Shown here one piece after another: positions 8,281 through 59,478 of a stretch of 64,000 bases of DNA (the stretch's first letter is position 1; every line of letters starts with the position of its first letter). The DNA lies in contig NZ_JAUHPX010000002.1 in the NCBI RefSeq assembly GCF_030418305.1, positions 186,001-250,000 of the forward strand, in the 5' to 3' direction. The notes under the pieces were generated by a model. That model had not been told where the DNA came from and did no database searches. It worked only from the letters and a program-made list of their open reading frames with translations. The DNA is from Demequina lignilytica (GTDB taxonomy: Bacteria > Actinomycetota > Actinomycetes > Actinomycetales > Demequinaceae). The position numbers and the translations under genes are program-made.

Positions 8281-8341
8281 CCACCGTTCACCGGCACTCG
8301 CAGCGCCCACACCGGTGGACAGCGTCGGCGGCGGGGCCTCC

Positions 8342-8361
8342 GGGGGACATCGGCGTCCCCC
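8342..8361 (-). terminator. GC hairpin downstream of the MFS gene
   Basis: GGGGGAC and GTCCCCC pair perfectly around a 6-nt loop, about 105 nt beyond the MFS stop codon. No T-run follows, as is common in actinobacterial terminators. A second hairpin lies closer to the gene at 8390-8417. Confidence 0.4.
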
Positions 8362-8389
8362 ACGCAACGGCGACGACGCCCCGAGGCGA

Positions 8390-8417
8390 CCCTCGCCTCG
8401 TCACTCCCAGGCGAGGG
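8390..8417 (-). terminator. Hairpin just downstream of the MFS gene
   Basis: CCCTCGCC (8390-8397) pairs with GGCGAGGG (8410-8417) across a 12-nt loop, about 50 nt past the stop of the MFS gene. An alternative pairing, CGCCTCG with CGAGGCG, is also possible. Likely terminator of the tetR-MFS operon. Confidence 0.45.
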
Positions 8418-8467
8418 CGAGGCGACGGGCCACCGGGGGCGCCACCGAGGATCGCGCGTGGCGGGGG

Positions 8468-17069: not shown

Positions 17070-17543
17070 TCACAGTCCGGCGCCGGCGAACGCCCCTTCG
17101 ACGGACTCGAGGAAGCCCGGCGAGGTGAAGCTGGCGCCGGACACGTGGTCCACGTCCCACGTCTGCGCCGCCAGCACGCGCGCGGCGAGCTCCGGCACCG
17201 CGGCGGCGTTGATTCGGACGGACTCGGCGTCCTGGGTCCCCGCCGCGAGCGCCTCGACCGCGGTGACGGTGCCGTCGACCACGGTGATGCGGGCCTGATA
17301 GTCGCCCCTGATGTTGGTCACGACCGGGCCGTCGACCACGACCGCATCGGCGTCGCCGCCGTCGGCGGTCGACGTCGGATCGGCCGTCGGATCGGCTGTC
17401 GGCTCAGCCGTCGGATCGGCCGTCGCGGCGCCGTCCGGCTCGGCCAGGTTCAGGTCGGGCAGCTCCTTGGGCGACACCGCCCAGCCGGCGCCCACGATCG
17501 CGACGCAGCCGCCGGCGACGATCACCGCACGCGACGCACGCAT
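17070..17543 (-). CDS. Membrane-anchored FMN-binding domain protein, copy 1
   Basis: 157-residue extracytoplasmic electron carrier. An N-terminal anchor (AVIVAGGCVAIVGAGWAV) is followed by a Pro/Thr/Asp-rich linker from 12-bp repeats (about residues 38-60) and an FMN_bind domain (residues 70-157). The flavinylation motif is HVSGASFTS; the Thr of SGASFT is the expected attachment residue, by analogy with NqrC and RnfG. Starts at ATG 17543 with GGGAGG upstream; the start codon lies within a decamer copy. It is between the flavocytochrome gene (13 nt upstream) and apbE. Confidence 0.85.
   Translation of the reverse strand: MRASRAVIVAGGCVAIVGAGWAVSPKELPDLNLAEPDGAATADPTAEPTADPTADPTSTADGGDADAVVVDGPVVTNIRGDYQARITVVDGTVTAVEALAAGTQDAESVRINAAAVPELAARVLAAQTWDVDHVSGASFTSPGFLESVEGAFAGAGL
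17374..17421. repeat. Four 12-bp tandem repeats in the linker of FMN protein 1
   Basis: Units of GTCGGATCGGCC or near copies at 17374, 17386, 17398 and 17410. On the coding strand they encode alternating Ala-Asp/Glu-Pro-Thr. They set the distance between membrane anchor and flavin domain. Confidence 0.75.
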
Positions 17544-17556
17544 CGTCCACCTCCCG

Positions 17557-18900: not shown

Positions 18901-19016
18901 CGTGCCTCCGGGGTCGATCGGCAGCGGGTTCCGTCACATCCTACGAAGGCGGTGCCGCGTTCCGGCAACCGTGCTCAGCCGGGACGTCTCTTCGCGGCGG
19001 TCGACGGGGTCTCCGC

Positions 19017-22000: not shown

Positions 22001-25000
22001 GGGAGCGCGGAAGGCCCGCGACCAGGACGAGGTGCTCCCATGAGCTGCCCGTCCACGAGACCCGCGAGAGCGCGCCCGAGTTGGTGTCGATGGCGGTTCC
22101 GCCGTTGATCATCGGGTGGTTCGAGGTGACGTAGATGACGGGGTTCGCCGCGGTGCCCTCCACGAGGATGCCGAGGATCACCCTGCCGGTCATGGTCGGC
22201 TGCGCCGTGCCCTGGTCATCGTGGTTCGGGATCTCCTTCACCACGTCGATCTGCTCGCTGGCGGTGACGACGTAGGTCCCCGGAACGCTGTAGTCGGTAC
22301 CCTGCTCACGCTCCACCGTGTAGGCGAAGATCGTCCCGTCGATCTGCGCGACGTAGAGCCTGCCGTCGGGACCCCAATCGAGGGTGGTCGCGGACTGCGA
22401 CACCTCGCCGCCGAGCTGCGACTGGTTCCACGAGAGCGCGTCGATCGACAGATCCGTCACGCCCACACCCGACAGCGGCACGATCAGGCTGCCCGTCTCG
22501 CCGTCACGCTCGTAGTCGAACGTGGCGGTGGCGGAGTGCGACGCCACGCTCGACGGATCGAAGGCGAGGTCGACCGTGGCTCCCGCTCCTGGCGCGATCG
22601 CCGCGCCCGGCAGCGCGCCCGCGGAGAACTGCGGGTCGGAGACGGTCACGCCCGTGATGGTCACCGCGCCCTCGCCCGACGCGCCCGTGTTGAGGAGCTG
22701 CACCGGCACGGTGTTGCTGCCGCCGTCCACGAGCGTGTCAGGGAAGGTCACCGCATCGGGGTCGGCCGCGAGCGCGTCGGCGATCGGCGTCGACTCGGCG
22801 CCCGTGCCCGTGAGCGCGACATCGACCTCGCCGGAGCCCGCGGAGCTCGAGTACGCGACCGTCATGGTGGCGGTGTCGACGCCCGTCGCGGTCGGCGCAT
22901 AGGTGACAGCGACCGACGAGGACTGTCCCGGCGCGATCGACGAGACGCTGGGAGCGCCCGTCGAGAACACCAGGTCCGGCGAGACGGTGATCGCGTCGAT
23001 CGTGATGTCCGGGTCGCCCGCACCGCCCGTGTTGACGAGGTCGATGGACGCGCTCGAGGATCCACCCACGATCGCCGAACCGAGGTCGAGCGATGTGGCT
23101 TCGGGGATCAGGACGCCCGGCTCGGGGACCGTCTCGACGATCTCGATGGCGTTGATCAGCGGGTTCTCCACGATCCCGGTGAAGCCGATGTCGACCGCGC
23201 CGTCCGAGTACACAGGGATGGCGAACATGTGCCCGACCTGGTGGCCGAACTGCGCCGACAGGTCGATGGCCGACAGCTCCGGCGGCACCACGCCGTCGAT
23301 GCTGATGTCGAACACGCGCTGGCCGGGCTGGGAGGTCCCGCCCCACCCGTTCGCCGCGTAGAGGCGCACCTCGACCCACGTGCCCGCGGGCACGTCGAAC
23401 GAGTAGGCCATGGTGCTCGTCGTGTCGTACCGCTCGGACGAGAAGACCTGCGGCGGGGTCGTCGCCGGCACCGACGCGTCGGGAGTCGAGTTGACGGAGA
23501 TGCCGCCGTTCGAACCCGCGGCCACCAGGTAGTCGGACGGGATCGAGCTCGTGTCGATCTGCCACGGAGGGCCGTCGTCCAGGGCCGCAAGCGTCGCTCC
23601 GCCCGAGTTCACGCGGTACAGCACCGTGCCGGAGGACAGCACGGGCACACCGGTGCCGGAGAGCGGCACGCTCACCGTCTGCGGGGCTCCGGAGCCCTGG
23701 TAGTCCACCACGAGCGAGCCGCTCACCGGGCCGTCGCTCGACGGCGCGAACGTGACGTCGAGCGAGACGCTGTCGCCGCCGGCGACGGATGTGCCCGTCA
23801 GGTCCGGATCGATCGCGAAGTCGTCACCGGCGCTCACCGACAGGATCGTCAGCTCAGGGTCGCCGACGGCGCCCAGGTTGGTGAGTGCGAGCGTCTGCGC
23901 CGCAGACGTGTCTCCGACCGTCACACCGCCGAAGGACAACGCGTCGGGGGTGGCGGCGAGGATGCCGTCGTAGGAGGTGAGGTCGGTGATCTCGATACCC
24001 TTGAGCGCCGGGTTCTGCGCCACGTGCAGGAACACCAGGTCGAGCGTCGAGTCCGTGGCGGTGAACTCCACGGTGCGCGCCATCGCGCCGGCCGCGCCCG
24101 CCTGGGCGAAGGCGTCGATGCCGTCGAACTCAGCCGGGACCGCACCTTCGAGCGAGACGTCGAACACGCGCTCGCCCACCGTGTCGATGCCCGCGTACAG
24201 CTCCGCGAACAACAGGCTGACCCGGTACGTGGAGCCCACCGTCACCGGGAAGGCCCAGGTCATCTCGTCCCCGCCGGAGTTGTCCCAGCGCTCGGTCTCG
24301 AACACCGCCGCCGCGGCGCTCGCCGGCACGCTCGCGTCGCTCATGTCGATCGGACCTGAGTACGCGCTGCCCGCTCCCAAGGCGTACGTGTTGTTGCTGC
24401 CACCGACGCGGTACGGCGAGAGCGACGCGCCCGAGTCGGCACCCCAGTCGGGGCTCGTGCCGTCCGCGGCGGCCACCAGCGGGCCGCCCACGTTGATGCG
24501 GTACACCACGTTCTCGACCGGCGCCGAGCCGGCCTCACCTGTGCCGGCGAGCGGCACCACGAGGCTGGCGGTCTCGCCATCCCGCTCGTAGTCGATGGTC
24601 GCGGTGGCGGTCTGGCTGCCTGCGGCAGCGGGATCGAAGGTGAAGTCCACGTCCGTCGTGGCACCCGGGTCGATCGCCGCGACCGGCAGGGCGCCACCGC
24701 CGAACTGCGCGTCGGAGATGGTGATCGCCGTGACGGTGATGGCCGACTCGCCCACGGCGCCGGCGTTCGCCAGCTGCACGGACACGGTGCTCAGGCCGCC
24801 GTCGACCAGGGTCGCGGGGAAGGTCACCGACGCGGGGTCGGCCGTCAACGCGCTGCCGATCGGCGTCGGCTCGACACCGGACCCGCTGAGCGGCACCTCG
24901 ACCGTCGCGGCGCCCGCGGTGCTCGAGTACGCGACGGTGAGGGTGTCCGAGTGCGCCCCCGCGCCGGTCGGCGCGTAGGTGACGTCGAGCGCGACGGTTC

Positions 25001-25859
25001 CGCCCGGGCCGACCACCGTGGTGCTCGGCGCGCCGGCGGAGAAGTCCGTACCCGTGGCCAGGGTGATCGAGTCGATGGTGATGGCCGGGTCGGGCACGAC
25101 CCCGACGTGGGTGAGGGTGAGCGCCTGCGGCGCCGAGGAGACGCCGACGTTCACGGCTCCGAAGTCGAGCGCGGCGGGGGACGCGGCGAGAGCGACCTCG
25201 CTGGACGAGATCTCGACGATCTCGATGCCCTTGAGCGCGGGGTTCTGCGCGACATGGAGGAACTCGAGGTCGAGCGTGCCGTCCGCCGCAAGCACCTCGA
25301 CGGTGCGCGCCATGGCGCCGGTCGCACCCGCCTGGGCGAACGGGTCGATGCCGGAGAACTCGGTCGGCACCGCACCGTCCACCGAGACGTCGAACACGCG
25401 CTCGCCGACCTGGTCGATGCCCGAGTACAGCTCCGCGAACAGCAGGCTCACCCGGTACGTGGAACCGACCGTGACCGGGAACGCCCACGCCATCTCGGTG
25501 CCGCCCGAGTTGTCGTAGCGCTCGGTCTCGAACACCTCGGCGGGCGCGCTCGCGGGCACGCTTCCGTCGCTCATGTCGATCGGGCCGGAGTACGCGCCTC
25601 CACGCCCGAGCCCGTACGTGTTGTTGCTGCCGGCCACGCGGTACGGCGAGGTGGACCCGCCCGTGTCGGCGCTCCAACCGGGGCTGGACCCGTCCGCGGC
25701 GGCCACCGCGGGGCCGCCCACGTTGATCCGGTACACCACGTCCTCGAGGAGCGCCGCGGACGTGGGGCTCGCCTGTACGACCAGCGCTCCCAGCAGCAAC
25801 ACCAACAGCGTGGCGGCCCAGCCCGCCCTCATGGACTTCCGCGTCGTCATCGTGGCCAT
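19017..25859 (-). CDS. Giant secreted multidomain protein: malectin repeats and sugar-dehydrogenase-like propeller
   Basis: 2280 residues from ATG 25859 (GGGGGAGAAAC upstream). Signal peptide about 1-36. Malectin modules start near residues 40, 450 and 746; Ig-like choice-of-anchor-D (ASH-type) domains lie between them. A glucose/sorbosone-dehydrogenase-like six-blade propeller covers about 1133-1613 (DWGPDGRLYVAQIDGTI, SQHDHMLGGIQIDPG, GYRNAYDVVLTENGNF). Then come calcium-type DxDxDG repeats (1631-1686), a lectin-like jelly roll (1696-1938), a PVDPDP linker and two beta domains. No LPXTG or membrane anchor at the C-terminus. Carbohydrate binding is likely; dehydrogenase activity with PQQ is only inferred. 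It lies between two flavin electron-transfer modules on the same strand. Confidence 0.85.
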   Translation of the reverse strand: MATMTTRKSMRAGWAATLLVLLLGALVVQASPTSAALLEDVVYRINVGGPAVAAADGSSPGWSADTGGSTSPYRVAGSNNTYGLGRGGAYSGPIDMSDGSVPASAPAEVFETERYDNSGGTEMAWAFPVTVGSTYRVSLLFAELYSGIDQVGERVFDVSVDGAVPTEFSGIDPFAQAGATGAMARTVEVLAADGTLDLEFLHVAQNPALKGIEIVEISSSEVALAASPAALDFGAVNVGVSSAPQALTLTHVGVVPDPAITIDSITLATGTDFSAGAPSTTVVGPGGTVALDVTYAPTGAGAHSDTLTVAYSSTAGAATVEVPLSGSGVEPTPIGSALTADPASVTFPATLVDGGLSTVSVQLANAGAVGESAITVTAITISDAQFGGGALPVAAIDPGATTDVDFTFDPAAAGSQTATATIDYERDGETASLVVPLAGTGEAGSAPVENVVYRINVGGPLVAAADGTSPDWGADSGASLSPYRVGGSNNTYALGAGSAYSGPIDMSDASVPASAAAAVFETERWDNSGGDEMTWAFPVTVGSTYRVSLLFAELYAGIDTVGERVFDVSLEGAVPAEFDGIDAFAQAGAAGAMARTVEFTATDSTLDLVFLHVAQNPALKGIEITDLTSYDGILAATPDALSFGGVTVGDTSAAQTLALTNLGAVGDPELTILSVSAGDDFAIDPDLTGTSVAGGDSVSLDVTFAPSSDGPVSGSLVVDYQGSGAPQTVSVPLSGTGVPVLSSGTVLYRVNSGGATLAALDDGPPWQIDTSSIPSDYLVAAGSNGGISVNSTPDASVPATTPPQVFSSERYDTTSTMAYSFDVPAGTWVEVRLYAANGWGGTSQPGQRVFDISIDGVVPPELSAIDLSAQFGHQVGHMFAIPVYSDGAVDIGFTGIVENPLINAIEIVETVPEPGVLIPEATSLDLGSAIVGGSSSASIDLVNTGGAGDPDITIDAITVSPDLVFSTGAPSVSSIAPGQSSSVAVTYAPTATGVDTATMTVAYSSSAGSGEVDVALTGTGAESTPIADALAADPDAVTFPDTLVDGGSNTVPVQLLNTGASGEGAVTITGVTVSDPQFSAGALPGAAIAPGAGATVDLAFDPSSVASHSATATFDYERDGETGSLIVPLSGVGVTDLSIDALSWNQSQLGGEVSQSATTLDWGPDGRLYVAQIDGTIFAYTVEREQGTDYSVPGTYVVTASEQIDVVKEIPNHDDQGTAQPTMTGRVILGILVEGTAANPVIYVTSNHPMINGGTAIDTNSGALSRVSWTGSSWEHLVLVAGLPRSQHDHMLGGIQIDPGANMAYITSGGNTNQGARSNNMDQLPEYALGSAILSIDLGAIDAMPTQTIDGVDYKYLLPTISSGPNPGAGVMPWGGQGGANMAMLIEGGPVQIHSPGYRNAYDVVLTENGNFFTVDNGPNGGWGHAPSASYVDDDITGAGDATVENGLCVDSSYAAGGTTKPDQLHRANAGDYGGHPNVTRGNPLGLPDGVENFGAAIPGAWYQDPRECEYLPAGLDGALTTFGSSTNGITEYTASSVFGGALEGALLTASYTGNGVIWAMIPSADGLSLTTQKVELFSGFGAYPLDVVAQGDDEEFPGLVAAVAYQAAASIVLWEPAGGAACDPSDPAADSDGDGYTNADEVASGTAPCNNGSRPPDFDGDLIGDVTDPDDDNDGLADVVDPFQVDPTNGVGTTEILLTFDATQNAGGFEGAGLTGLMVNATDKGAGAGDDYLDLLNRTDVIWGGTSPLIQINEVKEGDAFAGGNDQMDALQVGVDTAGTPFRVETTIAAPSFASTDPAFAGAAQDFAAQGVFIGDGTQSNYLRFALAYDGGVVIQALKEVDDTVVEVNAPAAPDAVDAAYVGLILDVTPGTTEATVVPSYVVDDGTPVVLPEMTIPMSWFDGPAYLETGDPASTLAAGIIATSRGAAEPFDAAWTDLFVTPTDPPVDPDPPVDPDPPVDPAPIAQARVEVTPGGALNTSTWGTNTIQITNESDPGVLLTSVEFDLSTAILPDLVFDPDDGTTAGDNTDVCFVPNSGAAATGLTTQLISGENCGPDAPQPLTDAFLDPYQDGFRTLHLEFDDFDEGDDGSGAYAFGFQVDIDPTSIKGTGSPGPGESGSVSGLELTGATVTMTFSNGETHVATLFSDGSDGGAIAIAKADAAAAPTISVAGVGAGPADVTDVAQTVTLTGPAGATYELLRVEGAMFEQSGGGVDVDPYEINSAVVVEVISGTVTSGSVDIPVTLTDSVTEGGYNYLVAVIRDADGDTGAASPVIVLALP
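23991..24517. repeat. Malectin-encoding direct repeat, unit A
   Basis: Matches 25221-25747 at a constant offset of 1230 bp with no insertions or deletions seen at the points checked. Encodes the second malectin module of the giant protein. The conserved boundary is CTCGAT(A/G)CCCTTGAGCGC. Confidence 0.7.
25221..25747. repeat. Malectin-encoding direct repeat, unit B
   Basis: Partner of 23991-24517. Encodes the first malectin module. The two encoded proteins share most residues, for example AELY(A/S)GID and HVAQNPALKGIEI, suggesting a recent internal duplication of about 1.23 kb. Confidence 0.7.
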
Positions 25860-25890
25860 GTTTCTCCCCCCAGAACCCAGGCTCGACTCG

Positions 25891-25920
25891 AACCTAGCGA
25901 AGATGGGGGTTTGTCCACAA
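25891..25920 (-). promoter_or_regulatory. Probable promoter of the giant secreted protein
   Basis: TTGTGG (25915-25920), 18-nt spacer, TAGGTT (25891-25896), 31 nt before the ATG. A perfect actinobacterial DnaA-box sequence TTGTCCACA (25911-25919, plus strand) overlaps the -35; with a single copy this may be chance. The surrounding 40 nt are AT-rich for this genome. The remainder of the gap to 26059 shows nothing else. Confidence 0.4.
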
Positions 25921-26059
25921 GATGCAGTTTTTCCGATTTGACCGCTACGGCGAGCGGCCGGCCGCGGGAGGCGCGGGGTTCTGCGCACGGGGACGTCGCG
26001 CCGAGGCCTCGCGCTCGCGACGCCGTCGGCGTCGGATCAGCGGGTCAGGACCGCCCGCC

Positions 26060-27466
26060 TCACCAGGAGAACTCCTCGGCGTGCAGGTGCTTCTGTGAGA
26101 GTCCCGATGCCTCGGCGTCGGCGAACAGACTCTCGACCCACGCCGTCGGCCCGCACGCGTAGACGTCGGCGTCGGCGATGTCGGGGACCAGCTCCGCGAT
26201 CCGGACAGGGTTCTCGGCGGGGCTCCACCCGTCACCGCGGGGGCCCGTGAGAACGTGCACACGGGCGCCTCGTTGCTCGGCGATCGCGATCACCTCGTCC
26301 AGGTGGGGCGCCTGCTCGATGCTGGACGCACGGGCGATGACCGTGCAGCGACCAGGATCGATGTCGGCGGTCTCGAGGAACGCCAGGATGGGCGTGATGC
26401 CGATGCCCGAGCCGGCCAGCACGAGGTGGTCGCCCGTGCGGGTCTTCTCGGTGAACACGCCGAGCGGCCCCTCGACCATCACCGTGGTGCCGATCTTGAG
26501 CTCGTTCATGCGCGCCGAGTGGTCCCCGAGCGGCTTGACCGTGATGCGCATCCAGCGGTCCAGCGGGGCGCGCGACAGCGAGTACGGATGCGCCTCGCCC
26601 CACAGGTCCTTCTGCAGGAAGCGGAAGAGGAAGAACTGGCCGGCCTCCGGCCTCATCCGGAGCAGGTCGCGCCCCGTCAGGGTGATGACCGTCGAGCCGT
26701 CGGCGAGCGTGTCGATCGCGGCCACCGAGATGCGGTGCCGGAAGTACCGCACCAGCGGGCGGACCACGCGGTACGCGATCAGCCCTCCCACCGCCACGGT
26801 CCACAGCGTGAGCCAGTACCACCAGGCGAAGTCCATGGCCATGAAGGTCTCGCCGTCGGTGAACTGATGCGGGATGGCGAGGCCGACCGCGATGTAGCTG
26901 AAGATGTGGACCGCGTGCCAGTTCTCATACCTCCAGCGCGAGCGGACCAGCGCGAGCGAGGTCACCACGACGATCGTGAGCACCGCGAACCCGGCCCACG
27001 CGAGGAACATCGGGCCGCCGTACGCGACGATCAGCTGCCACGTCTGGTCCCAGATCCCGGTCTGGGTGGGCAGCGCGTAGCCCAGCACCAGGGTGACGAT
27101 GTGCGCGAGCATGACCAGGAAGCCCATGCGTCCCAGCTGCCCATGAAGGCGCGCCGCGCGGTCGTGACCGACCACGCGCTCGACCACCGGCATGCGCGCG
27201 ATCAGGATGAGCTGGCCCATGATCATGGTCGACGCGACGATCCCGGTGATGCGGCCCATGGTGACGAGGAACCCGGAGAGCGACGTCACGTCGACGGTGC
27301 CCGAGGAGAGCATGAAGGCGAGCGAGCCCACCCCGACGAGCCAGAGCGCGGCCTCGACGGAGTCCTTCCAGCGGCTGCGGCGGGCGGCCCGCCGGCGGCG
27401 CTCATCGCGCTTGCGGCGCGCCTCCTCCTGCCCGGTGGCGGGGACGGCCCAGCTCAGCGAGGTCAT
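26060..27466 (-). CDS. Ferric-reductase-like flavocytochrome, copy 2
   Basis: 468 residues, paralogous along its whole length to the 17557-18900 product. A basic N-terminal cytoplasmic segment (residues 10-34) precedes about six helices with haem His pairs (GRMGFLVMLAHIV and ENWHAVHIFSYIA, IPHQF). The reductase half has AHPYSLSRAPLDRWMR, LAGSGIGITPILAFLE and DVYACGPTAW, and ends HAEEFSW (copy 1 ends HEERFGW). The ATG overlaps the stop of the upstream FMN-binding protein gene by 4 nt, so the two are made together. Confidence 0.88.
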   Translation of the reverse strand: MTSLSWAVPATGQEEARRKRDERRRRAARRSRWKDSVEAALWLVGVGSLAFMLSSGTVDVTSLSGFLVTMGRITGIVASTMIMGQLILIARMPVVERVVGHDRAARLHGQLGRMGFLVMLAHIVTLVLGYALPTQTGIWDQTWQLIVAYGGPMFLAWAGFAVLTIVVVTSLALVRSRWRYENWHAVHIFSYIAVGLAIPHQFTDGETFMAMDFAWWYWLTLWTVAVGGLIAYRVVRPLVRYFRHRISVAAIDTLADGSTVITLTGRDLLRMRPEAGQFFLFRFLQKDLWGEAHPYSLSRAPLDRWMRITVKPLGDHSARMNELKIGTTVMVEGPLGVFTEKTRTGDHLVLAGSGIGITPILAFLETADIDPGRCTVIARASSIEQAPHLDEVIAIAEQRGARVHVLTGPRGDGWSPAENPVRIAELVPDIADADVYACGPTAWVESLFADAEASGLSQKHLHAEEFSW

Positions 27467-28050
27467 GCCAGACCCGCCGCCTGCATCGCGGAGAGCACGG
27501 CCTCCTCGACGCCCTCGGACGTGTAGCTCGCGCCGGAGATGTAGCCGACGTCGGTCGACTGCGCCTCGAGGATGGCGTCCTCGAGCTGGGGGATCGCGTA
27601 CTCGTTGATCTGCTGCGACTTGTGATCGGCCTCGCCGTCCTGCAACCAGGTGATGGCGGTCATGACGCCGTCCACCACCGTGATCTCGGCCTGGAAGTTC
27701 CCGTACCTCGTGGTCACGGCGGAGCCGTCGAACGTACCCGAGACGCTGGTCGTCGAACCCGTCGAGGTATCGGTGGACGCGTCCGTCGACGTGTCGGTCG
27801 AGGTATCGGTGGAGGTGTCCGTCGAGGAGCCGGTCGAGCTCTCCGTCGACGAACTCGCCTCCGGCGTGGCCTCGGTGGTGGCGGTCGAGTCGCTGGTCGT
27901 CGTCGAGTCCGACGTGTCGAGGGTGGCGGCCTCGGCGGTGGAGGTGGTCGTCGACTCTCCGCCGGAGAAGAGGCCCGACCCGCTGGCGGCGCCGGCCGTC
28001 AGCAGCACGGCCGAGAGGCCCGTGACGATGATGCCTGAGGATCGCTTCAT
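27463..28050 (-). CDS. Exported FMN-binding domain protein, copy 2
   Basis: 195 residues: N-terminal signal or anchor (IIVTGLSAVLLTAGAASG), a Ser/Thr/Asp-rich linker with DTST repeats (about 65-100), then the FMN_bind domain with flavinylation motif YISGASYTSEG. The Thr of SGASYT should carry FMN. No ribosome-binding site is obvious; GATATT lies 6 nt before the ATG, so the mRNA may be leaderless. It precedes and overlaps the flavocytochrome copy 2 gene. No second apbE is nearby, so the enzyme at 16.2 kb probably flavinylates this protein too. Confidence 0.84.
   Translation of the reverse strand: MKRSSGIIVTGLSAVLLTAGAASGSGLFSGGESTTTSTAEAATLDTSDSTTTSDSTATTEATPEASSSTESSTGSSTDTSTDTSTDTSTDASTDTSTGSTTSVSGTFDGSAVTTRYGNFQAEITVVDGVMTAITWLQDGEADHKSQQINEYAIPQLEDAILEAQSTDVGYISGASYTSEGVEEAVLSAMQAAGLA
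27761..27844. repeat. Seven 12-bp tandem repeats in the linker of FMN protein 2
   Basis: Units related to GTCGAGGTATCG begin at 27761, 27773, 27785, 27797, 27809, 27821 and 27833; the units at 27761 and 27797 are identical. They encode the Ser/Thr/Asp-rich linker. The unit length matches that in FMN protein 1, though the sequence differs. Confidence 0.72.
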
Positions 28051-52388: not shown

Positions 52389-52604
52389 GCGTTCCTCGGG
52401 TGGTCCTGGCGTTCGACTCGTCTGCGAGGACGCCCCGTCCGTCAGGACGATGCGCGGTACCACCCCGCTTGCGGCCTCCCCGGGTGGGGCGGTCGCCGCT
52501 CATGGATCGCTGTGACGGGCTGCCCGTGCGGTTCTAGTGAGGCCCGGCCGAGGCCGGTCCCGTTCTTCCGCAAGCTCGCCGGTGATGGCCGGGTCGACGC
52601 TGTG
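52389..52604 (-). promoter_or_regulatory. ileS T-box riboswitch
   Basis: The minus-strand leader contains the T-box sequence GGGTGGTACCGCGC (52465 down to 52452), preceded by a short Stem I with the isoleucine specifier ATC (52586-52584) in CGGCCATCACCGG. This is the actinobacterial short-Stem-I, translation-controlling class: uncharged tRNA-Ile should expose the ribosome-binding site. An exact decamer (52445-52454) overlaps the end of the T-box. Confidence 0.88.
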
Positions 52605-52610
52605 CGCACC

Positions 52611-52638
52611 AGTGTACGGGAGGGCGCGCCGCGGTCAT
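52611..52638 (-). promoter_or_regulatory. Promoter of the T-box/ileS transcript
   Basis: TACACT (52611-52616) is a good -10; ATGACC (52633-52638), 16 nt upstream, is a weak -35 that overlaps the stop codon of the preceding gene. Predicted transcription start near 52604. Confidence 0.5.
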
Positions 52639-53405
52639 CCACTCGCCGCCGTGAACCACGCGATGATGATGTCGGCCGTGGTGGCCTCGCCGGCGCCCGG
52701 CTGCGCCGTGACCGCGAGCGCCTCGGATCCCTGGACGTGGACCCAGGTGCGCCACGACGTCCCGAAGCCGTCTCCGGCGCTCACGAGCACCCGGACCCCC
52801 TCGCCCGCGAGCGACTGGATGCCGACCTCCGCCGCGTCGACCCCGATCTCCCCGTCGGCCTCGCCGTCGCACGCGGACGCCGCTCGCGTGAGAGCGTCGA
52901 GGTACTCGCGGGCGGCGTCGGCCGAGTCGAAGTCCCGTGCGACGACCGCGGAGACGTTGCCCTCCCCGTGGGCGACGCCCCCGAGCGCGACCGGCACGCC
53001 TCCGAGGTCGGGGCGCCCGTCGAGGCGCGACGACGAGTCGAGCGCCACGCATCCCGACGCCTCCTCACGCGTCACCGCCACGGAGCCGAACAGGTCGGCC
53101 CCGGCACCGCCGACCAGTCCCCGTCCGGGCGGGTCCCACTCGCGCTCGTCGAGGGGCACGGCCGTGGCGCTCGCCGACTCCGCCGGCTCCACCGTGGAGC
53201 GCGGCTGCACCAGCGCGTGCGCGCCGACCGCGACCGCCGCCGCGACCGCGAGCGCCACTCCCGCCTCCGCGGCCCTGCGGATCCGGCGTCGCGGCACGAT
53301 CGCCTTCTCGTACAGGGTGGTCTCGGACCCCGGGTGCGCGCGGTCGAAGCGCCGCGCCTCCTTGTCCAGCGAGTCGAGCATCATCGTCGTCAGGTCGTCG
53401 GTCAT
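52635..53405 (-). CDS. Membrane partner of ECF sigma, unit 3 (anti-sigma-like)
   Basis: 256 residues: cytoplasmic N-terminus (1-43, including FDRAHPGSETTLYEKAIVPR), one helix (about 44-66), exported domain. The ATG overlaps the sigma gene stop by 4 nt, the usual sigma/anti-sigma arrangement. The exported domain has two Cys (EASGCVALDS and AASACDGEAD) matching those in the two paralogues at 55.7 and 58.1 kb. No known anti-sigma (zinc ASD) motif is seen, so the role is inferred from context. Confidence 0.7.
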   Translation of the reverse strand: MTDDLTTMMLDSLDKEARRFDRAHPGSETTLYEKAIVPRRRIRRAAEAGVALAVAAAVAVGAHALVQPRSTVEPAESASATAVPLDEREWDPPGRGLVGGAGADLFGSVAVTREEASGCVALDSSSRLDGRPDLGGVPVALGGVAHGEGNVSAVVARDFDSADAAREYLDALTRAASACDGEADGEIGVDAAEVGIQSLAGEGVRVLVSAGDGFGTSWRTWVHVQGSEALAVTAQPGAGEATTADIIIAWFTAASG

Positions 53406-53950
53406 CGCGCTCGCCTCCTCGTCTCCACGGCGGTCAGATCCTCGTCGTCGTCACGGTCCCCGAAGCCGAACCCGCCGAGCGTCTCGCGCATCGCCGCCAG
53501 CGCGTCGTGCAGGTATCGCTTGACGGCGCCCTCGGACACGCCCATCCGGTCGGCCGTCTCGGCGGTGGTCAGCCCCTCGACGTGGCGGAGCACCACGCAG
53601 GCGCGCTGCCGGGGCGGGAGCCTCCGCAAGGCGACCACCACCGCATCGTGCTCGCCCGCGTGCTCGTCCGCGGGCGGGGCGTCCCTCTCGACCAGCAGCG
53701 GGAGCTTCGACCGCGCCATCGCCGCGTGGTCGCGGCGGTTGAGGAACTGCGTGAGGATGGTGCGCCGCACGTAGGCCTCGGCCTCGTTGACGTGGTCGAG
53801 GCGTCGCGCTCGCGAGAAGGTCCGGATGATCGCGTCGTGGACCAGGTCCTCCGCGGTGGGACGGTCGCCGGCGAGAAGGTAGGCGTATCCGACGAGCCGG
53901 CTGCGCCGCTCGCGGACCAGCGTGTCGAGCACGCCGTGCCACGCCCTCAT
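53402..53950 (-). CDS. SigE-family ECF sigma factor, unit 3
   Basis: 182 residues. Region 2: YAYLLAGDRPTAEDLVHDAI and EAYVRRTILTQFLNRR; region 4: LPPRQRACVVLRHVEGLTTA and MGVSEGAVKRYLHDALAAMR. Nearly the same length and spacing as the unit 2 sigma. The tail is acidic then basic. Followed by an overlapping membrane partner. The 34-nt gap upstream contains an exact decamer (53969) and no visible promoter. Confidence 0.88.
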   Translation of the reverse strand: MRAWHGVLDTLVRERRSRLVGYAYLLAGDRPTAEDLVHDAIIRTFSRARRLDHVNEAEAYVRRTILTQFLNRRDHAAMARSKLPLLVERDAPPADEHAGEHDAVVVALRRLPPRQRACVVLRHVEGLTTAETADRMGVSEGAVKRYLHDALAAMRETLGGFGFGDRDDDEDLTAVETRRRAR

Positions 53951-53984
53951 CCCGCGCCTCCCGTGTCCCGCATCGTCCCGGCCG

Positions 53985-54827
53985 TCAGGCCGCGCCCATG
54001 TGATCCACGTACGCCTGGATCACTCGCGCCGCCTGCGCCTCCTCGTCCTCGACACCGACCACCTCGACCGAGATCGCGTACGGGCCGGCGACATGGACGT
54101 ACGCGGTGCGCGGCTCGTACGTGGACCTGTGCTCGACCTCGCCGTCGGGGCCGTAGAACACGGACTCCTCGGCGCCGTGCCGAACGCGCACGATCGGCGC
54201 CGCGAGACCCGGCAGGTCGAGCTGGTCGACGGCGGTGATCACCCGCTCGTCGGCGGCGGTGGTGCCGTCCCACGAGCTGGTCACGGTGTAGGCCGTGCAC
54301 TCGGACTCGAGCAGCGCAGCCGGCACGGTCGACGCGAGCTCCGGATCGCCGAAGACGCGCGTGAGGACGCTCGCCACCGTCAGATCCTCCTCGTCCTCCG
54401 GCGGCACCCCGTCGACGAAGAACGGTCCGACCGGGTTGATGAGGTCCTGCGCCGCCGCGCCGAGATCCGCGTCCGACCCGAGCTCCGCCGCCTGGTGGAA
54501 CGCGGTGCACGACGCGGGCTCGACCACCGAGGTCGCGGAGCCGTAGAAGCCTTCCGCGGAGTCGACGGGGCTGAACTGCCCTGCGGGCACGGCGAGGCCC
54601 TCGAACGCCACGAGCGAGTCGAACGCTGCCAGATGGAGCTTCAGCGCGCCCCCGGACGTCGCGGTCGTCTCGCCGACGTCGCCGACGGACGCCTCAGCCG
54701 AGGGCGAGGCGTCGGACGGCTCCTCGGCGCCGCCGTCGCAGGCGGCCAGCAGCGGGAGCGCGCAGCAGGCCGCCCCGGCCACGACGGCCCGCCCCCACCG
54801 CGCTCGCGGGTGGTTCTCTCGGATCAT
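53985..54827 (-). CDS. Lipoprotein of the sigma cluster, unit 2
   Basis: 280 residues from ATG 54827. Lipobox LPLLAACDGG with lipid-attachment Cys. The rest resembles the lipoprotein at 57.1 kb: a first Cys (VVEPASCTAFHQ) and a second (ALLESECTAYTV), and a shared PFFVDGV / AFFAIADGV segment. No enzyme motif. Promoter-like motif 44 nt upstream. Probably an extracytoplasmic sensor or ligand-binding part of the cluster. Confidence 0.75.
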   Translation of the reverse strand: MIRENHPRARWGRAVVAGAACCALPLLAACDGGAEEPSDASPSAEASVGDVGETTATSGGALKLHLAAFDSLVAFEGLAVPAGQFSPVDSAEGFYGSATSVVEPASCTAFHQAAELGSDADLGAAAQDLINPVGPFFVDGVPPEDEEDLTVASVLTRVFGDPELASTVPAALLESECTAYTVTSSWDGTTAADERVITAVDQLDLPGLAAPIVRVRHGAEESVFYGPDGEVEHRSTYEPRTAYVHVAGPYAISVEVVGVEDEEAQAARVIQAYVDHMGAA

Positions 54828-54870
54828 GATGGCTCCCCTCCCCGGCGAGCGGATGCCCGCCATGGTCTGA

Positions 54871-54898
54871 CAACAGACGGGTCCTCCCCGCGGTTGTG
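54871..54898 (-). promoter_or_regulatory. CAACCG-N15-TGTT motif, copy 3
   Basis: Minus strand CACAACCG, then CGTCTGTTG, 44 nt before the unit 2 lipoprotein start. Same layout as 58051-58080 and 59449-59478. Confidence 0.5.
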
Positions 54899-54916
54899 CC
54901 GCCGCGCACGCCGACC

Positions 54917-55732
54917 TCACCGCGCGCCCAGATGGTCCAGCAGCTGGTCGGCGACGGCGAGGCTGATCGCGTCAGGATCGGCGACATCGGTGGCGCCCAG
55001 GCAGAGCAGGTAGGGCCCGCGCGCGATGAGGTAGACGCGGTCGTCGACGGCGAGCGCCGGACCGGTCTCGCGCCACACACGCCCGTCGGGCAGCGTCAGC
55101 ACCTCGGGCCCGACGCGGAGGCCGACCCCGAGGTCCGGCCCGGCGAGCGGGACCGTCTCGAGCACGGCCTCGGTCGCGATCAGGTGCGTGCCCTCCTCCG
55201 TCCCCGGGACGAAGGGGCGGACGCTGGCGATCGCAGCGCAGTCGGCGGCCGCCGCCAGGCGGACGATCTCCGCGGGCGCCTCCCGGTCGGCGAAGACGCG
55301 CAGGGCGATTGTGAGCGTGCTCACGCGCGAGCCGCCGCCGACCGCCTGCAGGTAGCCGAGCCGCGCATAGAGGTCGCCACGGCGGGCGGCGGAGTCCGAC
55401 GCGGTCGCCAGGTCGAGGGCGCGCCGGAGCGCGACGCAGTCGCGGCTCCCGGTCGGCCGCTCCGCCCAGGACAGCTCGCCCACGTCCACCACGCCGGACG
55501 ATGCGTCGGCTCGGTACGCGTACCCGGCGAGGATCGGCACGAAGCCGAGGACGCTCGCGCGCAGCTCCGGATCCCCGGCGGGCGTGGCGGGCGCCGCGGT
55601 CGCCGTCGGGGCCGCCGTGGAGGCGGGGCCGCCGGTCTCGGCGAGCACCAGCACGAGCCCGAGGGCGACGACGACCAACGCGGCCGCCGCGAGCCACGCC
55701 CGGGTGCGCCAGCCGGCGCTAGCCCACGGCAC
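54917..55732 (-). CDS. Membrane-anchored protein related to the cluster lipoproteins
   Basis: 271 residues from GTG 55732, overlapping the preceding gene by 14 nt. One N-terminal helix (LAAAALVVVALGLVLVLAET) then an exported domain with Cys pair SRDCVALRRAL and AAADCAAIASV, resembling the two lipoproteins in spacing and in its end (ISLAVADQLLDHLGAR). It may be a lipoprotein-family member anchored by a helix instead of a lipid. Decamer at 55496. Confidence 0.7.
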   Translation of the reverse strand: MPWASAGWRTRAWLAAAALVVVALGLVLVLAETGGPASTAAPTATAAPATPAGDPELRASVLGFVPILAGYAYRADASSGVVDVGELSWAERPTGSRDCVALRRALDLATASDSAARRGDLYARLGYLQAVGGGSRVSTLTIALRVFADREAPAEIVRLAAAADCAAIASVRPFVPGTEEGTHLIATEAVLETVPLAGPDLGVGLRVGPEVLTLPDGRVWRETGPALAVDDRVYLIARGPYLLCLGATDVADPDAISLAVADQLLDHLGAR

Positions 55733-56513
55733 CTTCCACCCACGCCGCGATGACGTCGAGGGCGGCGACATCCGCGCCGGGCTCCGTGACGATCGCCACG
55801 GCATCCGCTCCGATCACATGCACGTCGAGACGCCAGACGGACTCGCCCGCCGGGAGCGTCGCCGTCACGGCCTCGCCCGGGAGCCCGGTCAGAGCGATGC
55901 GGGAGGCCCGGGCCTGCATCCCCTCCCCCTCGAGGTCCGTCACGCAACGGCCCGCGATCGATTCGAGGTCCCCGAGATAGGTCTGGGCGTCCTCAACGGA
56001 CTCGAAGGAACGCAGCCGCACCCCGGTCGCCGCCCCGGACTCTCCGACGAAGGCTCCCAGGTTCTTCGCGGCGCCCACGCTCGCGTCGGTCCCGCCCGCC
56101 AGTGCGGCGAACGACTCGAGCGAGCCACAGGCCACCGAGTCGGCGGCGGCCGCTCCGACGGCCTCGGCGGCGGTCATCGCGGTCACCCCCGGCGAGATCA
56201 CGACGTCGGCGACCGTCCATCCGGGCTCGCCCGCGACGGCGTCCGGATCGGACACGAGCGCCGCGGGCGTCGGGGTCGGCGTCTCGACGGCCGGATCCAG
56301 CGACGTGCCCGAGGGACCGAGCGCGAGGTAGCCGGCACCCGCGACCCCGACACCGACCAGCGCGACGGCGGCGACACCTGCGCGCCGGGCCGCGCGACGC
56401 GGGCGGATCGTGCGGACGTACGCGTCGGTGTCGCCGTCCCGGTGGGCCGCGTCGACGCGCGCGCGCTCCTCCTCGGCGACCGAGGTCAGCATGTCCTTCA
56501 GCTGCGTGCTCAT
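55719..56513 (-). CDS. Membrane partner of ECF sigma, unit 2 (anti-sigma-like)
   Basis: 264 residues; cytoplasmic segment 1-43 (AEEERARVDAAHRDGDTDAY), one helix (44-66, VAAVALVGVGVAGAGYLAL), exported domain with DSVACGSLESFAAL and IAGRCVTDLEG. VAGEPGWTVADVVISPG matches VAGEAGWTVAGLVIDPR in the unit 1 protein, showing common descent. Overlaps the sigma gene by 4 nt. Confidence 0.72.
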   Translation of the reverse strand: MSTQLKDMLTSVAEEERARVDAAHRDGDTDAYVRTIRPRRAARRAGVAAVALVGVGVAGAGYLALGPSGTSLDPAVETPTPTPAALVSDPDAVAGEPGWTVADVVISPGVTAMTAAEAVGAAAADSVACGSLESFAALAGGTDASVGAAKNLGAFVGESGAATGVRLRSFESVEDAQTYLGDLESIAGRCVTDLEGEGMQARASRIALTGLPGEAVTATLPAGESVWRLDVHVIGADAVAIVTEPGADVAALDVIAAWVEGAVG

Positions 56514-57058
56514 CGACGGCCTCCCCTCGGCGCGACCACCCTGACGCCGGCGTCCTCCCGGTCGTCCGCGCCGTCCAGACCCCGAAGCTCCTCGCGCAGG
56601 ACCGCGAGCGCGTCGTGCAGGTACCGCTTGACGGATCCGGTCGAGATGCCGAGCCGCTCCGCGGTCTCCTCCGTGCTCAGGTCCTCGAAGTGGCGGAGCA
56701 CCACGCAGGCGCGCTGGCGCCTGGTCAGCAGGCCGAGCGCGCGCGTGACCTCGGCGTTCTCCCCGGCGGTCTGGTCCGCCGGCGGGGCGTCCCGCTCGAC
56801 GAGCAGGTGCTGCTTAGCGCGCGCGACGGCACGCGAGCGCCGACCGTTGAGGAACTGCGTCGCGATGGTGCGGCGGACGTACGCCTCGGCGGCCCGCGGA
56901 TCGTCCAGCCGCCGTGCCCGGGTGAAGGTGCGGATGATCGCGTCGTGCACCAGGTCCTCGGCCGTCGGGCGATCCCCCGCGAGCAGGTAGGCGTACCCGA
57001 CGAGCGCGCCCCTGCGCTCGCGGATCATGGTGTCAAGCACGCCCTGCCACCGGTTCAT
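56510..57058 (-). CDS. SigE-family ECF sigma factor, unit 2
   Basis: 182 residues from ATG 57058. Region 2: YAYLLAGDRPTAEDLVHDAI and EAYVRRTIATQFLNGRRSRA; region 4: RRQRACVVLRHFEDLSTEET and LGISTGSVKRYLHDALAVLR. Very close to unit 3. No CAACCG motif upstream, so it may be read from the unit 1 transcript or an unseen promoter. Confidence 0.88.
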   Translation of the reverse strand: MNRWQGVLDTMIRERRGALVGYAYLLAGDRPTAEDLVHDAIIRTFTRARRLDDPRAAEAYVRRTIATQFLNGRRSRAVARAKQHLLVERDAPPADQTAGENAEVTRALGLLTRRQRACVVLRHFEDLSTEETAERLGISTGSVKRYLHDALAVLREELRGLDGADDREDAGVRVVAPRGGRR

Positions 57059-57147
57059 GGTGAGTCCCCGTCCGGCCGCCTCCCCTGTCCTGGCCACGTC
57101 TCACTGCCTCCATGATGACCCGCGGAGGCATGATGCGCAGGGCGCGG

Positions 57148-58005
57148 TCACGGCTCGACCGCCCGGATGGCGTCGGCGAGCTCGGCGATGACCGCCGCCG
57201 CGACCTGGTCCTGTGCCAGCGCCTCGTGCACCTCGAAGCGCACCATCACCCGCCCGATCGCGACGTAGTACGTGGTCTCCGGAAGATCGATGACCTCGAC
57301 GGAGCCGGCGGCCTCGTCGACCAGATCGACGATGTGCACATCGATCCGGGTCACCGGCGCGTCGACCCCGTCGAGGCCGATCCGCGCGATCACGACGTCC
57401 TCGACGTTCAGGGCACCGACGCTGCCCGACTCCGCGAACGCGGTGCATGCGTCGGCGCTCGCGGGGAGATCGGCCATGGCCGACGCCGACTCCGGGTCGT
57501 CGAGGATGCGTGCCCGCAGCGTCGACTCGTCGAAGCCCGACACCCCGTCGGCGATGGCGAAGAACGCTCCCGTGTGGACGGTCGGGTCGTCCGCGCGCGT
57601 GGTGCTGTCCTCGTTGGTCGCCCCGCCCAGCAGGTTCACCACCGGACCGCAGACGGCCGGGTCGACGGACCGGTGCTCGTAGGCCGTCCACTCGGACGCC
57701 AACGTGAACGCCTCCTCTCCGGCACGCAGGCCACGGAAGCCCAGCCCCTGCTCCTCGAGCAGCGCCTCGGACGGCTCGAAGGTCGCGAGCACCGCGATCA
57801 GGGCCTGGTCCTCGGCGGCCGCGCCGGGGTACTCCAGCGCCTCACCCTCCGCCGTCACCGTCGCAACCCCGGACGGCACCGGCGTCGCCTCGCCGCCGGA
57901 CGATGCGGTGGCACCCACCGCGCCGCCCTCGCCCGCGCTGCACCCCGCCAAGGTCGCGAGCGCGGCGACGGACGCGATCACGGTCAGCAGCCTCGAGCTC
58001 GTCAT
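57148..58005 (-). CDS. Lipoprotein of the sigma cluster, unit 1
   Basis: 285 residues from ATG 58005. Lipobox ALATLAGCSAGE. The mature part has Cys in SVDPAVCGPVVN and ASADACTAFAES, paralleling the unit 2 lipoprotein. Decamer at 57898 in the linker after the lipid site. Promoter motif 46 nt upstream. No catalytic motif seen. Confidence 0.75.
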   Translation of the reverse strand: MTSSRLLTVIASVAALATLAGCSAGEGGAVGATASSGGEATPVPSGVATVTAEGEALEYPGAAAEDQALIAVLATFEPSEALLEEQGLGFRGLRAGEEAFTLASEWTAYEHRSVDPAVCGPVVNLLGGATNEDSTTRADDPTVHTGAFFAIADGVSGFDESTLRARILDDPESASAMADLPASADACTAFAESGSVGALNVEDVVIARIGLDGVDAPVTRIDVHIVDLVDEAAGSVEVIDLPETTYYVAIGRVMVRFEVHEALAQDQVAAAVIAELADAIRAVEP

Positions 58006-58050
58006 CGGGCCCTCCCCTCGGCGGCGAGCGTCGTCGCCGCACCGACCAGA

Positions 58051-58080
58051 GAACACCGGGGACGCGGATCCGGTTGGGGG
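58051..58080 (-). promoter_or_regulatory. CAACCG-N15-TGTT motif, copy 2
   Basis: Minus strand CCCCCAACCGG, then CCGGTGTTC, 46 nt before the unit 1 lipoprotein. CAACCGG and CGGTGTT are identical to those in copy 1. Confidence 0.55.
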
Positions 58081-58084
58081 CGCC

Positions 58085-58894
58085 TCATCGGAGTCCTCCG
58101 GCCGCCCAGTCGCGCGTGATGCTCAGGGCGCGGTCCGCCGCGGTCGGGTCGGAGACCACGGCGATGGCGCTGGCCCCGTCGACGTAGACCTGGAGACGCC
58201 ACGCGTCCTCGGTGAACGGCACCGGGATCGCGACGGCGACCCCGTCACCGGGGAGGCCCGCCGCGTCGACGCGGGCGACCGTCATGGCGACACCCCACCC
58301 GCCCATCTCGTCCGCGCAGCGGCGCGCGATCCGCCACAGCTCGCCGACGTACTCGGCGGCGATGCCGGCGGTCGCGAACGACCGCACGTGGACGTCGTTC
58401 GCCCCGCCTCCGCTGGAGACGAACGCACCCAGGTGCACCGGCGCGGTCCCGTCGGCACGGCCGACCAGCCGGCCGAAGGCCTCCAGGGCCCCGCACGCCA
58501 CGGGCTCCTCGACCACCGGGCCGACGGAGTCCGCGAGGGGCGTCGCGGCCCCGCGGGGGTCGATCACGAGCCCGGCGACGGTCCACCCCGCCTCGCCGGC
58601 GACGGCCTCGGGATCCCCGACCGCGGAGGAGCCCGCAGAGGAGGAGGCGGCGACGGACGGCGCGGCGGGCGCGGTCGTGGCGCCCGTACCGGCCAGCCCG
58701 ATCAGCGCGAGGCCCGGCACCGCGAGCGCGAGGAGCACGCCCAGCACGGCGACCGGCGCCAGGCGCCGCGCCCGGCGCAGGGGCGAGATCACCCGCGAGT
58801 AGAGGACGGCGTCGTCGGCGGGGTGCTCGAAGTCGAACGTGGCGCGCTCCTCGGCGACCACGGCGTCCATCAGCCTGCCGAGGTCCGGGTTCAT
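58085..58894 (-). CDS. Membrane partner of ECF sigma, unit 1 (anti-sigma-like)
   Basis: 269 residues; cytoplasmic N-terminus (AEERATFDFEHPADDAVLYS), helix about 45-70 (VAVLGVLLALAVPGLALIGL), exported domain with PVACGALEAFGRLVG and IARRCADEMGG. The exported domain is homologous to unit 2 (GEAGWTVAGLV; LGAFVSSGG against LGAFVGESG). Overlaps the sigma stop by 4 nt. Confidence 0.72.
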   Translation of the reverse strand: MNPDLGRLMDAVVAEERATFDFEHPADDAVLYSRVISPLRRARRLAPVAVLGVLLALAVPGLALIGLAGTGATTAPAAPSVAASSSAGSSAVGDPEAVAGEAGWTVAGLVIDPRGAATPLADSVGPVVEEPVACGALEAFGRLVGRADGTAPVHLGAFVSSGGGANDVHVRSFATAGIAAEYVGELWRIARRCADEMGGWGVAMTVARVDAAGLPGDGVAVAIPVPFTEDAWRLQVYVDGASAIAVVSDPTAADRALSITRDWAAGGLR

Positions 58895-59409
58895 GGCGCG
58901 CCTCGCAGGTCGCGCGAGAGCTCGGCGGCGAGCACCGTGTCCGCCTGGTCCAGCGCCCGGGCGACCGCGTCGGCGCCCATCCCGACCGTCCGTGCGATGT
59001 CCGCCGTGGACTTCCGATCGACGTCCCGGAGCACCACGCAGGCGCGCTGACGGCGGTCGAGCATCCACAGCGCCCCCGTGATCGCCGAGGCCGGGCCCTC
59101 CGTGGCCGTCCCTGCCGGCGGCTCGCCGTCCACCCCCCGCAGCCGCGACGTCGCGCGGGCGATCATCGGGCCGCGCCGCGCGCGCACGAAGCGGGCCATG
59201 ATCTGACCCCGCACCGCGACCAGCGCCACCTCCGCGTCGTGCCACGCGCGAGGACGCGAGAAGGTGCGGATGATCGCCTCCCGAACCAGGTCCTGCGCGG
59301 CCCACCGCTCCCCGACCAGGAGCGACGCGTACCCGACGAGCTCGCCCCGCCGCGCGACCACCCCGGCCAGCGCATCGTCCCAGCCCCCGTGCCTCCGCAT
59401 GCCGTCCAT
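58891..59409 (-). CDS. Divergent SigE-like ECF sigma factor, unit 1
   Basis: 172 residues. Region 2 (GYASLLVGERWAAQDLVREA, IIRTFSRPRAW) and region 4 (LDRRQRACVVLRDVDRKSTA, VGMGADAVARALDQAD) are recognisable but altered: the recognition helix lacks the SVKRYLHDAL of the other two, so it may read a different promoter. ATG 59409; ATG 59400 is also possible. Decamer at 59371 (WDDALAG). First gene of the cluster. Confidence 0.78.
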   Translation of the reverse strand: MDGMRRHGGWDDALAGVVARRGELVGYASLLVGERWAAQDLVREAIIRTFSRPRAWHDAEVALVAVRGQIMARFVRARRGPMIARATSRLRGVDGEPPAGTATEGPASAITGALWMLDRRQRACVVLRDVDRKSTADIARTVGMGADAVARALDQADTVLAAELSRDLRGAP

Positions 59410-59448: not shown

Positions 59449-59478
59449 CAACACCGTGGCGGCCGCGCCCGGTTGGGG
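59449..59478 (-). promoter_or_regulatory. CAACCG-N16-TGTT motif, copy 1
   Basis: Minus strand CCCCAACCGG, then ACGGTGTTG, 40 nt before the first sigma gene of the cluster. Placement relative to the start codon agrees with copies 2 and 3. It resembles an ECF promoter with AAC at -35. Confidence 0.55.

Follow-up and report, generated by a model that had tools for sequence, protein, structure and literature searches.

A tandem array of SigE-type sigma factor units with a predicted PknH-like domain in membrane partners and lipoproteins of Demequina lignilytica

In a 64,000-nucleotide stretch of the Demequina lignilytica genome (contig NZ_JAUHPX010000002.1, positions 186,001 to 250,000; the window in the following), gene calling places nine minus-strand genes that fill positions 59409..52635. 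They encode three extracytoplasmic function (ECF) sigma factors of the SigE type with one membrane partner each, two lipoproteins and one membrane-anchored protein. We consider it likely that they form parallel, partly insulated and autoregulated sigma/anti-sigma units, in which a PknH-like sensor domain recurs in the lipoproteins. In the best reading two units are working (lip1-sig2-par2-anc and lip2-sig3-par3) and one is decaying (sig1-par1). We describe the genes present, their homology and predicted folds, the distribution of the motif and the match between promoter variant and sigma group. New are the shared sensor domain, the promoter code and the retained sensors.

Gene content and promoter-like sites of the cluster

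The cluster comprises the following genes and promoter-like sites:

59450..59475, minus strand: promoter-like site CAACC-N17-TGTT heading sig1-par1, the sole N17 spacing among 25 listed unit heads
58891..59409, minus strand: sig1, degenerate SigE-type ECF sigma factor (TIGR02983 61.9 bits; Pfam region 2 unmatched; 34/53 invariant columns retained)
58085..58894, minus strand: par1, membrane partner with a short cytoplasmic segment, a transmembrane (TM) helix and a PknH-like ectodomain (by homology; sigma-less partners of relatives are nearest, with weak support)
58052..58076, minus strand: promoter-like site CAACC-N16-TGTT of the GTGTT type, heading lip1-sig2-par2-anc
57148..58005, minus strand: lip1, lipoprotein (LAGC lipobox) of the PknH-like domain family (by lipoprotein alignment and profile comparison)
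56510..57058, minus strand: sig2, SigE-type ECF sigma factor of group II (TIGR02983 131.9 bits; tree)
55719..56513, minus strand: par2, membrane partner, predicted anti-sigma factor and sensor (AlphaFold2 model; PknH ectodomain by VIA)
54917..55732, minus strand: anc, TM-anchored PknH-like domain without lipobox Cys and without sigma-binding segment (start uncertain)
54872..54896, minus strand: promoter-like site CAACC-N16-TGTT of the CTGTT type, heading lip2-sig3-par3
53985..54827, minus strand: lip2, lipoprotein (LAAC lipobox) with PknH-like domain (AlphaFold2 model; PknH ectodomain by Foldseek and VIA)
53402..53950, minus strand: sig3, SigE-type ECF sigma factor of group I (TIGR02983 125.2 bits; tree; orthologues adjoin ileS in relatives)
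52635..53405, minus strand: par3, membrane partner of sig3 (by homology to the other partners)

The gene calls confirm the nine same-strand genes of the first-pass annotation as well as the overlap of each sigma gene with its own partner gene by 4 nucleotides (sig1/par1 58891-58894, sig2/par2 56510-56513, sig3/par3 53402-53405). For anc the gene finder gives a start at 55732 versus 55804 for the longest ATG. The cluster is flanked by an MFS gene on one side and by a class I tRNA synthetase gene on the other. The latter is taken as ileS, the IleRS name being assigned by eye.

The window contains just three copies of the motif CAACC-N16/17-TGTT, which head sig1, lip1 and lip2, against 0.10 expected; none of 100 shuffles reached three. 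Six sites were found in the whole genome (2.9 Mb on 18 contigs), and seven genomes contained 51 sites versus 14 for a reversed control. From the three sites at these heads, the likely units are therefore sig1-par1, lip1-sig2-par2-anc and lip2-sig3-par3. The sigma-partner-lipoprotein order assumed previously thus gives way to lip-sigma-partner units, delimited by the sites, for both intact sigmas.

Sig2 and sig3, which are 66-67% identical, match Sigma70_r2 and Sigma70_r4_2 above the Pfam cut-offs. For sig1 only region 4 is recognised, region 2 being unmatched in Pfam even with E values up to 1. For all three proteins TIGR02983 (SigE family) is the best NCBIfam model, with scores below its curated NCBI cut-off of 141.55 (61.9, 131.9 and 125.2 bits for sig1, sig2 and sig3). 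Their assignment as SigE-type sigma factors therefore holds with respect to ECF identity and best model, but the curated cut-off is not reached and sig1 is strongly divergent. A described ECF group may already cover these sigmas. Sig1 retains 34 of the 53 columns that are invariant across 13 other sigmas, and its end branch in the sigma tree is 4.33 compared to a median of 0.21. Judged by its sequence, sig1 seems to be a lost or degenerate sigma, and relatives retain sigma-less partners. Of the proposed triplication, the three sigma-partner pairs stand but not three equivalent sigmas, since sig1 is degenerate.

A predicted PknH-like domain in partners and lipoproteins

Par2 and par3 share 40 and 33% identity with par1, and the partners carry a single helix after about 45 residues, such that their proposed homology and one-helix topology are borne out. 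We aligned 19 partners and 19 lipoprotein-family proteins from Demequina; some rows of both alignments start beyond the N-terminus due to late gene-call starts or short genes. The lipobox Cys is visible in 13 of the 19 lipoprotein-family rows, while two others are TM-anchored and four have late or interrupted starts. The counterpart of anc in D. maris (G014), positioned after a partner, is likewise TM-anchored without lipobox Cys. In a group-I lipoprotein gene of the same genome (L034:7159-8110) the signal-peptide region seems interrupted.

Two Cys are conserved in 19/19 partners and two in 19/19 lipoprotein-family members, in agreement with the Cys pairs previously noted in the exported domains. 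The partner profile aligns with the lipoprotein profile over the ectodomain (Prob 96.3, E 1.5e-9) with both Cys in register. What had been regarded as two separate paired-Cys families is therefore one domain family, with one conserved Cys pair per PknH-like domain.

Structure predictions point to the identity of this domain. We searched AlphaFold2 models of lip2 and par2 (predicted local distance difference test scores of 85.3 and 84.4) separately with Foldseek and with VIA, which realigns Foldseek's own list of PDB matches. For lip2 the PknH ectodomain 4esq headed the list of Foldseek (E 2.2e-4, prob 1.00) and that of VIA (Z 12.0, 181 aligned residues, root-mean-square deviation 3.8). For par2 it ranked first by VIA (Z 10.6, 151 aligned, root-mean-square deviation 3.6). 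TiME was within 1 Z of 4esq in both VIA lists. The models thus suggest that partner ectodomains and lipoproteins share the PknH ectodomain fold, clearly for lip2 and more weakly for par2.

Neither partners nor lipoproteins match a curated family of Pfam or NCBIfam above cut-off. PF14032 (PknH_C) gave at best 22.3 bits (E 1.3e-4, 176/187 positions, cut-off 27) for one of the 19 partners, and one of the 19 lipoprotein-family rows reached E 0.059, also under cut-off. A sequence search of solved structures gave no useful match. The profile searches and structure predictions proposed in the first-pass annotation thus provided a PknH-like fold but no curated family above cut-off. Membership of the partners in an unrelated enzyme family, which that annotation had named as evidence against its proposal, was not found above the Pfam cut-off in a search that phrogs and padloc lay outside; only weak matches of single members were obtained (CO_deh_flav_C, E 0.0038; FitA-like_RHH, E 0.0082).

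Excerpts from the literature describe that the M. tuberculosis receptor kinase PknH shares its sensor domain with the lipoproteins LpqQ, LprH, LppH and LpqA (PMC4118811). The Demequina proteins, which have the same predicted fold, likewise combine a membrane receptor with distinct lipoproteins that contain its sensor domain. PknH is however a kinase, while the Demequina receptor domain is joined to a presumed sigma-binding segment instead. Unlike the M. tuberculosis set, the Demequina receptor and lipoproteins share one cluster and one promoter kind. The receptor-plus-lipoprotein use of the PknH-like domain would hereby be extended from kinases to sigma control.

Relatives, promoter variants and sigma groups

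Full-length partners (E under 1e-20) are present in 10 of 44 Demequina genomes (G000, G006, G009, G013, G014, G017, G019, G025, G030 and G035), each with a unit near ileS. The cluster is thus conserved in relatives, neither unconserved nor scattered. Its content varies: near ileS, G014 contains two sigmas, three partners and three lipoprotein-family genes, and G019 and G009 contain one sigma, two partners and two lipoprotein-family genes each. G009 possesses an extra sigma-partner-lipoprotein unit (L037) between a UPF0102 (yraN-like) gene and an MFS gene; the equivalent spot in the window (8312-8468) is free of such a unit. Matches to the lipoprotein profile were obtained in 9 of 396 genomes of the order, every one a Demequina; about six candidates were scored per listed genome, which limits the absence elsewhere accordingly, and G035, not among the matches, was maybe not sampled.

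Overlapping partners and tandem arrangement are widespread in this sigma family. For 93 distinct other SigE-type sigmas (from named loci, contig-edge cases dropped), a same-strand gene followed within 20 nucleotides in 77 cases, in 58 at exactly -4, and 73 of these 77 neighbours had an early TM helix. With the target loci included and duplicates kept, 63 sigma genes stood singly, while 15 double, 3 triple, 1 quadruple and 1 quintuple run were seen. Given such runs, the tandem array of sigma-partner pairs is ordinary. Special here are the promoter class and the kinship between sensor and lipoprotein. Upstream of the wider family CAACC was found in 41/97 cases versus 21.1 expected from base shuffling, followed at N16 by CGTC in 13 and CGTT in 9. 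The SigE-family systems of Cellulomonas, Actinotalea, Demequina and relatives therefore have in common the same sigma, often the 4-nucleotide overlap, tandem arrays, a single-TM partner with short cytoplasmic part and a CAACC -35 element with 16-nucleotide spacing. They differ in the -10 element, which is most often CGTC/CGTT elsewhere but of the TGTK type in the Demequina clusters. Partners elsewhere are mostly longer and 0/10 scanned match PknH_C, and the lipoprotein family, unlike the sigma-partner pairs, was matched only in Demequina. One Cellulomonas partner (L094:9543-10952) has an ectodomain with weak similarity to models of BamB-type propellers (E 4.5e-8, well below the cut-off).

In the ten Demequina genomes a CAACC-N16/17-TGTK site lies within 330 nucleotides of 25/25 listed unit heads, including those of sigma-less partners and lipoproteins. 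Operon-internal genes (among others anc, its G014 counterpart and two lipoprotein genes closely behind a family gene) were left out of the 25, as were a G025 partner with unclear start and a lone G032 sigma with a one-mismatch site. Two lipoprotein starts were corrected by eye, and the site of one G014 lipoprotein lies 217 nucleotides before the called start.

The -10 variant of the sites follows the sigma groups. In a tree without sig1, a group III pair is separated at 99/99 and group I (the sig3 orthologues) is supported at 97/95, group II being the sig2-like remainder outside both, not one clade. Group I operons carry aCAACC..CTGTT (7/7). Group II operons carry GTGTT (5/5), with c before CAACC in 4/5 (Fisher test of the -10 variant between groups I and II: 0.0013, uncorrected for shared descent). 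GTGTG is found in group III at 4/4 heads at both loci, i.e. at 2/2 sigma operons and two adjoining lipoprotein heads. The sig1 head (GTGTT with N17) was excluded from these counts. We infer that group I and II sigmas are insulated at least partly through the nucleotide that precedes TGTT (C or G).

Alternatively, the paralogues may feed one shared sigma pool, with cross-reacting sigmas and partners that are redundant rather than insulated channels. One or two bases distinguish the motifs, the proteins sig2 and sig3 are closely similar (see above), and the existence of partners without a sigma implies that several of them may share a single sigma. Given that the -10 variant tracks the sigma group in 12/12 listed group I/II heads and at both group III loci, we regard a shared pool as unlikely.

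The five sigma-less partners all have the group-I -10 variant CTGTT, three of them with c before CAACC like most of group II. Their cytoplasmic segments are as conserved (identity 0.44) as those of paired partners (0.45). The closest neighbours of par1 are sigma-less partners from G019, G014 and G009 (identity up to 47%), at weak support (56/80). This fits, but does not prove, that sigma-less partners are sensors kept after their sigma was lost.

Proposed regulatory role and possible targets of the units

The conservation of the partners is highest in the segment that would face the sigma factor: mean identity in 17 partners is 0.43 for the cytoplasmic segment, 0.36 for the ectodomain, 0.27 for the TM helix and 0.22 for the linker. 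Excerpts of PMC7406223 describe an Hx3Cx2C motif in the cytoplasmic domain of zinc (class I) anti-sigma factors and a cytoplasmic segment of under 50 residues for possible class II (CnrY-like) anti-sigma factors. The Hx3Cx2C motif is absent here, the cytoplasmic segment being Cys-free in the 18 aligned partners with letters there. The partners also gave no zinc anti-sigma Pfam match, a result that bears on the zinc class I but not on zinc-less class I factors. With about 45 residues the segment is short enough for a possible class II factor, and its CnrY matches are at chance level (E 0.32 and 2.6). From layout and conservation at the sequence level, we infer that the partners act as anti-sigma factors. 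Literature searches returned nothing joining PknH-like domains with anti-sigma factors, only unrelated work on LuxR solos in Archaea for Demequina and sigma factor, and nothing useful for ECF with SigE family, Demequina or Cellulomonas.

The partners could instead be tethers or co-activators, and the lipoproteins envelope-protective outputs without a sensing role. This would agree with the lack of a curated anti-sigma domain match above cut-off, and with lipoproteins and a secreted protein (see below) standing behind the same promoter kind like plain regulon members. However, partners and lipoproteins have their sensor domain in common, and the operons of both intact sigmas begin with a lipoprotein gene. 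The sigma-partner overlap and the single TM helix are moreover as usual for ECF anti-sigma factors and are found repeatedly in the sigma family. We therefore regard tethers and plain outputs as improbable.

For anti-sigma partners we propose the following sequence of events, in which sigma binding, inhibition, signal, insulation and lipoprotein role are all presumed. Each partner would hold its own sigma at the membrane via the cytoplasmic segment and sense the envelope through its PknH-like outer domain. Upon a signal, release or proteolysis of the partner would free the sigma, which would transcribe its own operon from CAACC-N16-TGTT, such that sigma, partner and lipoprotein would rise together. 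In several species a secreted two-Cys protein would also be induced. The lipoproteins would most likely serve as decoys or modulators of the sensor, by RseB-like feedback or ligand buffering. After loss of a sigma, as sig1 seems to exemplify, the partner could stay and come under the promoter of a remaining sigma, providing several sensors per sigma.

In E. coli RseA-RseB an ECF sigma, a membrane anti-sigma factor and an exported modulator are combined; in Demequina, by difference, modulator and sensor share one domain. Lip2 aligns partly to RseB, near the background of the tool (VIA Z 8.5 over 99 residues). Streptomyces SigE-CseABC also has an ECF sigma with a lipoprotein in the operon. According to excerpts of PMC6767563 it is under two-component control and the sigE promoter is not a sigma-E target, whereas the nine Demequina genes include no two-component genes and each unit has the shared promoter-like site, presumably in use.

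The regulon may be narrow. The exact sig3-type pattern CACAACC-N15-CTGTT, which would overlook weaker targets, has 11 matches in G000, G013, G019, G006 and G009, of which 8 precede cluster genes and 3 the gene of a secreted two-Cys protein about 212 residues long. This protein occurs in 7/44 Demequina genomes, namely in 6/10 with the cluster versus 1/34 others (Fisher p 1.9e-4, uncorrected for kinship). The motif lies upstream of its gene in G000, G013, G014 and G019. In G017 the two presumably adjoin, the motif standing at the end of one contig and the gene at the start of another. Both Cys recur in the 11 aligned members of the family, with the first one shifted in a single row. Homology of the secreted protein to the sensor domain was ruled out (hhalign Prob 0.6 and 0.4). 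The family (L189:3954-4601) has no Pfam match, is tandem in several genomes and lies near a semialdehyde dehydrogenase gene. Eight of the stretches with motif hits outside the cluster were looked at in other genomes, and other sites in G000 (L190, L191) revealed no convincing conserved target. A one-mismatch search returned extra sites, one kind of which (CACAACCTCC..GCGGTT) is conserved in three genomes.

Several observations count against insulated sigma/anti-sigma units with PknH-like sensors. The cytoplasmic segment matches no anti-sigma family in profile searches, and among the five sigma-less partners the ectodomain (0.51) is more conserved than this segment (0.44). In plain Foldseek no par2 match reached E 0.001; SciW (E 2.8e-3), DcrB and PsbP led the list, and PknH came 20th (E 0.079). 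The heads behind the 25/25 count were chosen by hand, the match between -10 variant and sigma group is not phylogenetically independent, and group II is not a supported clade, its members having been labelled after the promoters were seen. In G030 (L226) one more site of the CTGTT type (7959-7983) is not directly followed by a family gene. G018 holds the secreted protein without the cluster and without the motif before its gene, and G035 has protein and cluster but no motif before the secreted gene.

With these points included we still favour parallel, partly insulated units. More tentatively, they may represent an evolving sensor array, in which ECF sigmas are separated by single -10 bases, orphan sensors are rewired to the surviving sigma, lipoproteins act as decoys and the regulon is almost only the array itself. 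Sigma specificity, loss and gain of sensors and promoter change can be compared side by side over ten species, and the insulation of paralogous ECF sigmas becomes testable by a few one- or two-base promoter swaps. An own control sequence per unit hints at how a cell could separate similar stress switches.

A redox relay, in which the Cys pairs switch by disulfide exchange, is very improbable: two invariant Cys per ectodomain alignment and two in the secreted target family would allow it, but the pairs do not vary and the solved member of the fold has two intramolecular disulfides (excerpts of PMC3601408 and PMC4118811). As the pairs are invariant in 19/19 rows, a structural role, probably as a disulfide, fits better. 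The redox-sensitive disulfides of the first-pass annotation thus find no support of their own, while the multi-sensor arrangement and the related exported paired-Cys proteins of its multi-input envelope-sensing relay remain.

Two further regions of the window drew attention. Downstream of par3, the leader of the ileS-like gene (52440-52620) contains a T-box-like GGTGGTACCGCG stretch seen by eye, with no Rfam match even at E up to 1. On either side of a gene for an exported protein of 2280 residues (19017-25859), a ferric-reductase-like membrane protein and an FMN_bind protein are encoded as a pair, and the region 17070-28050 is a possible extracytoplasmic flavin electron-transfer island.

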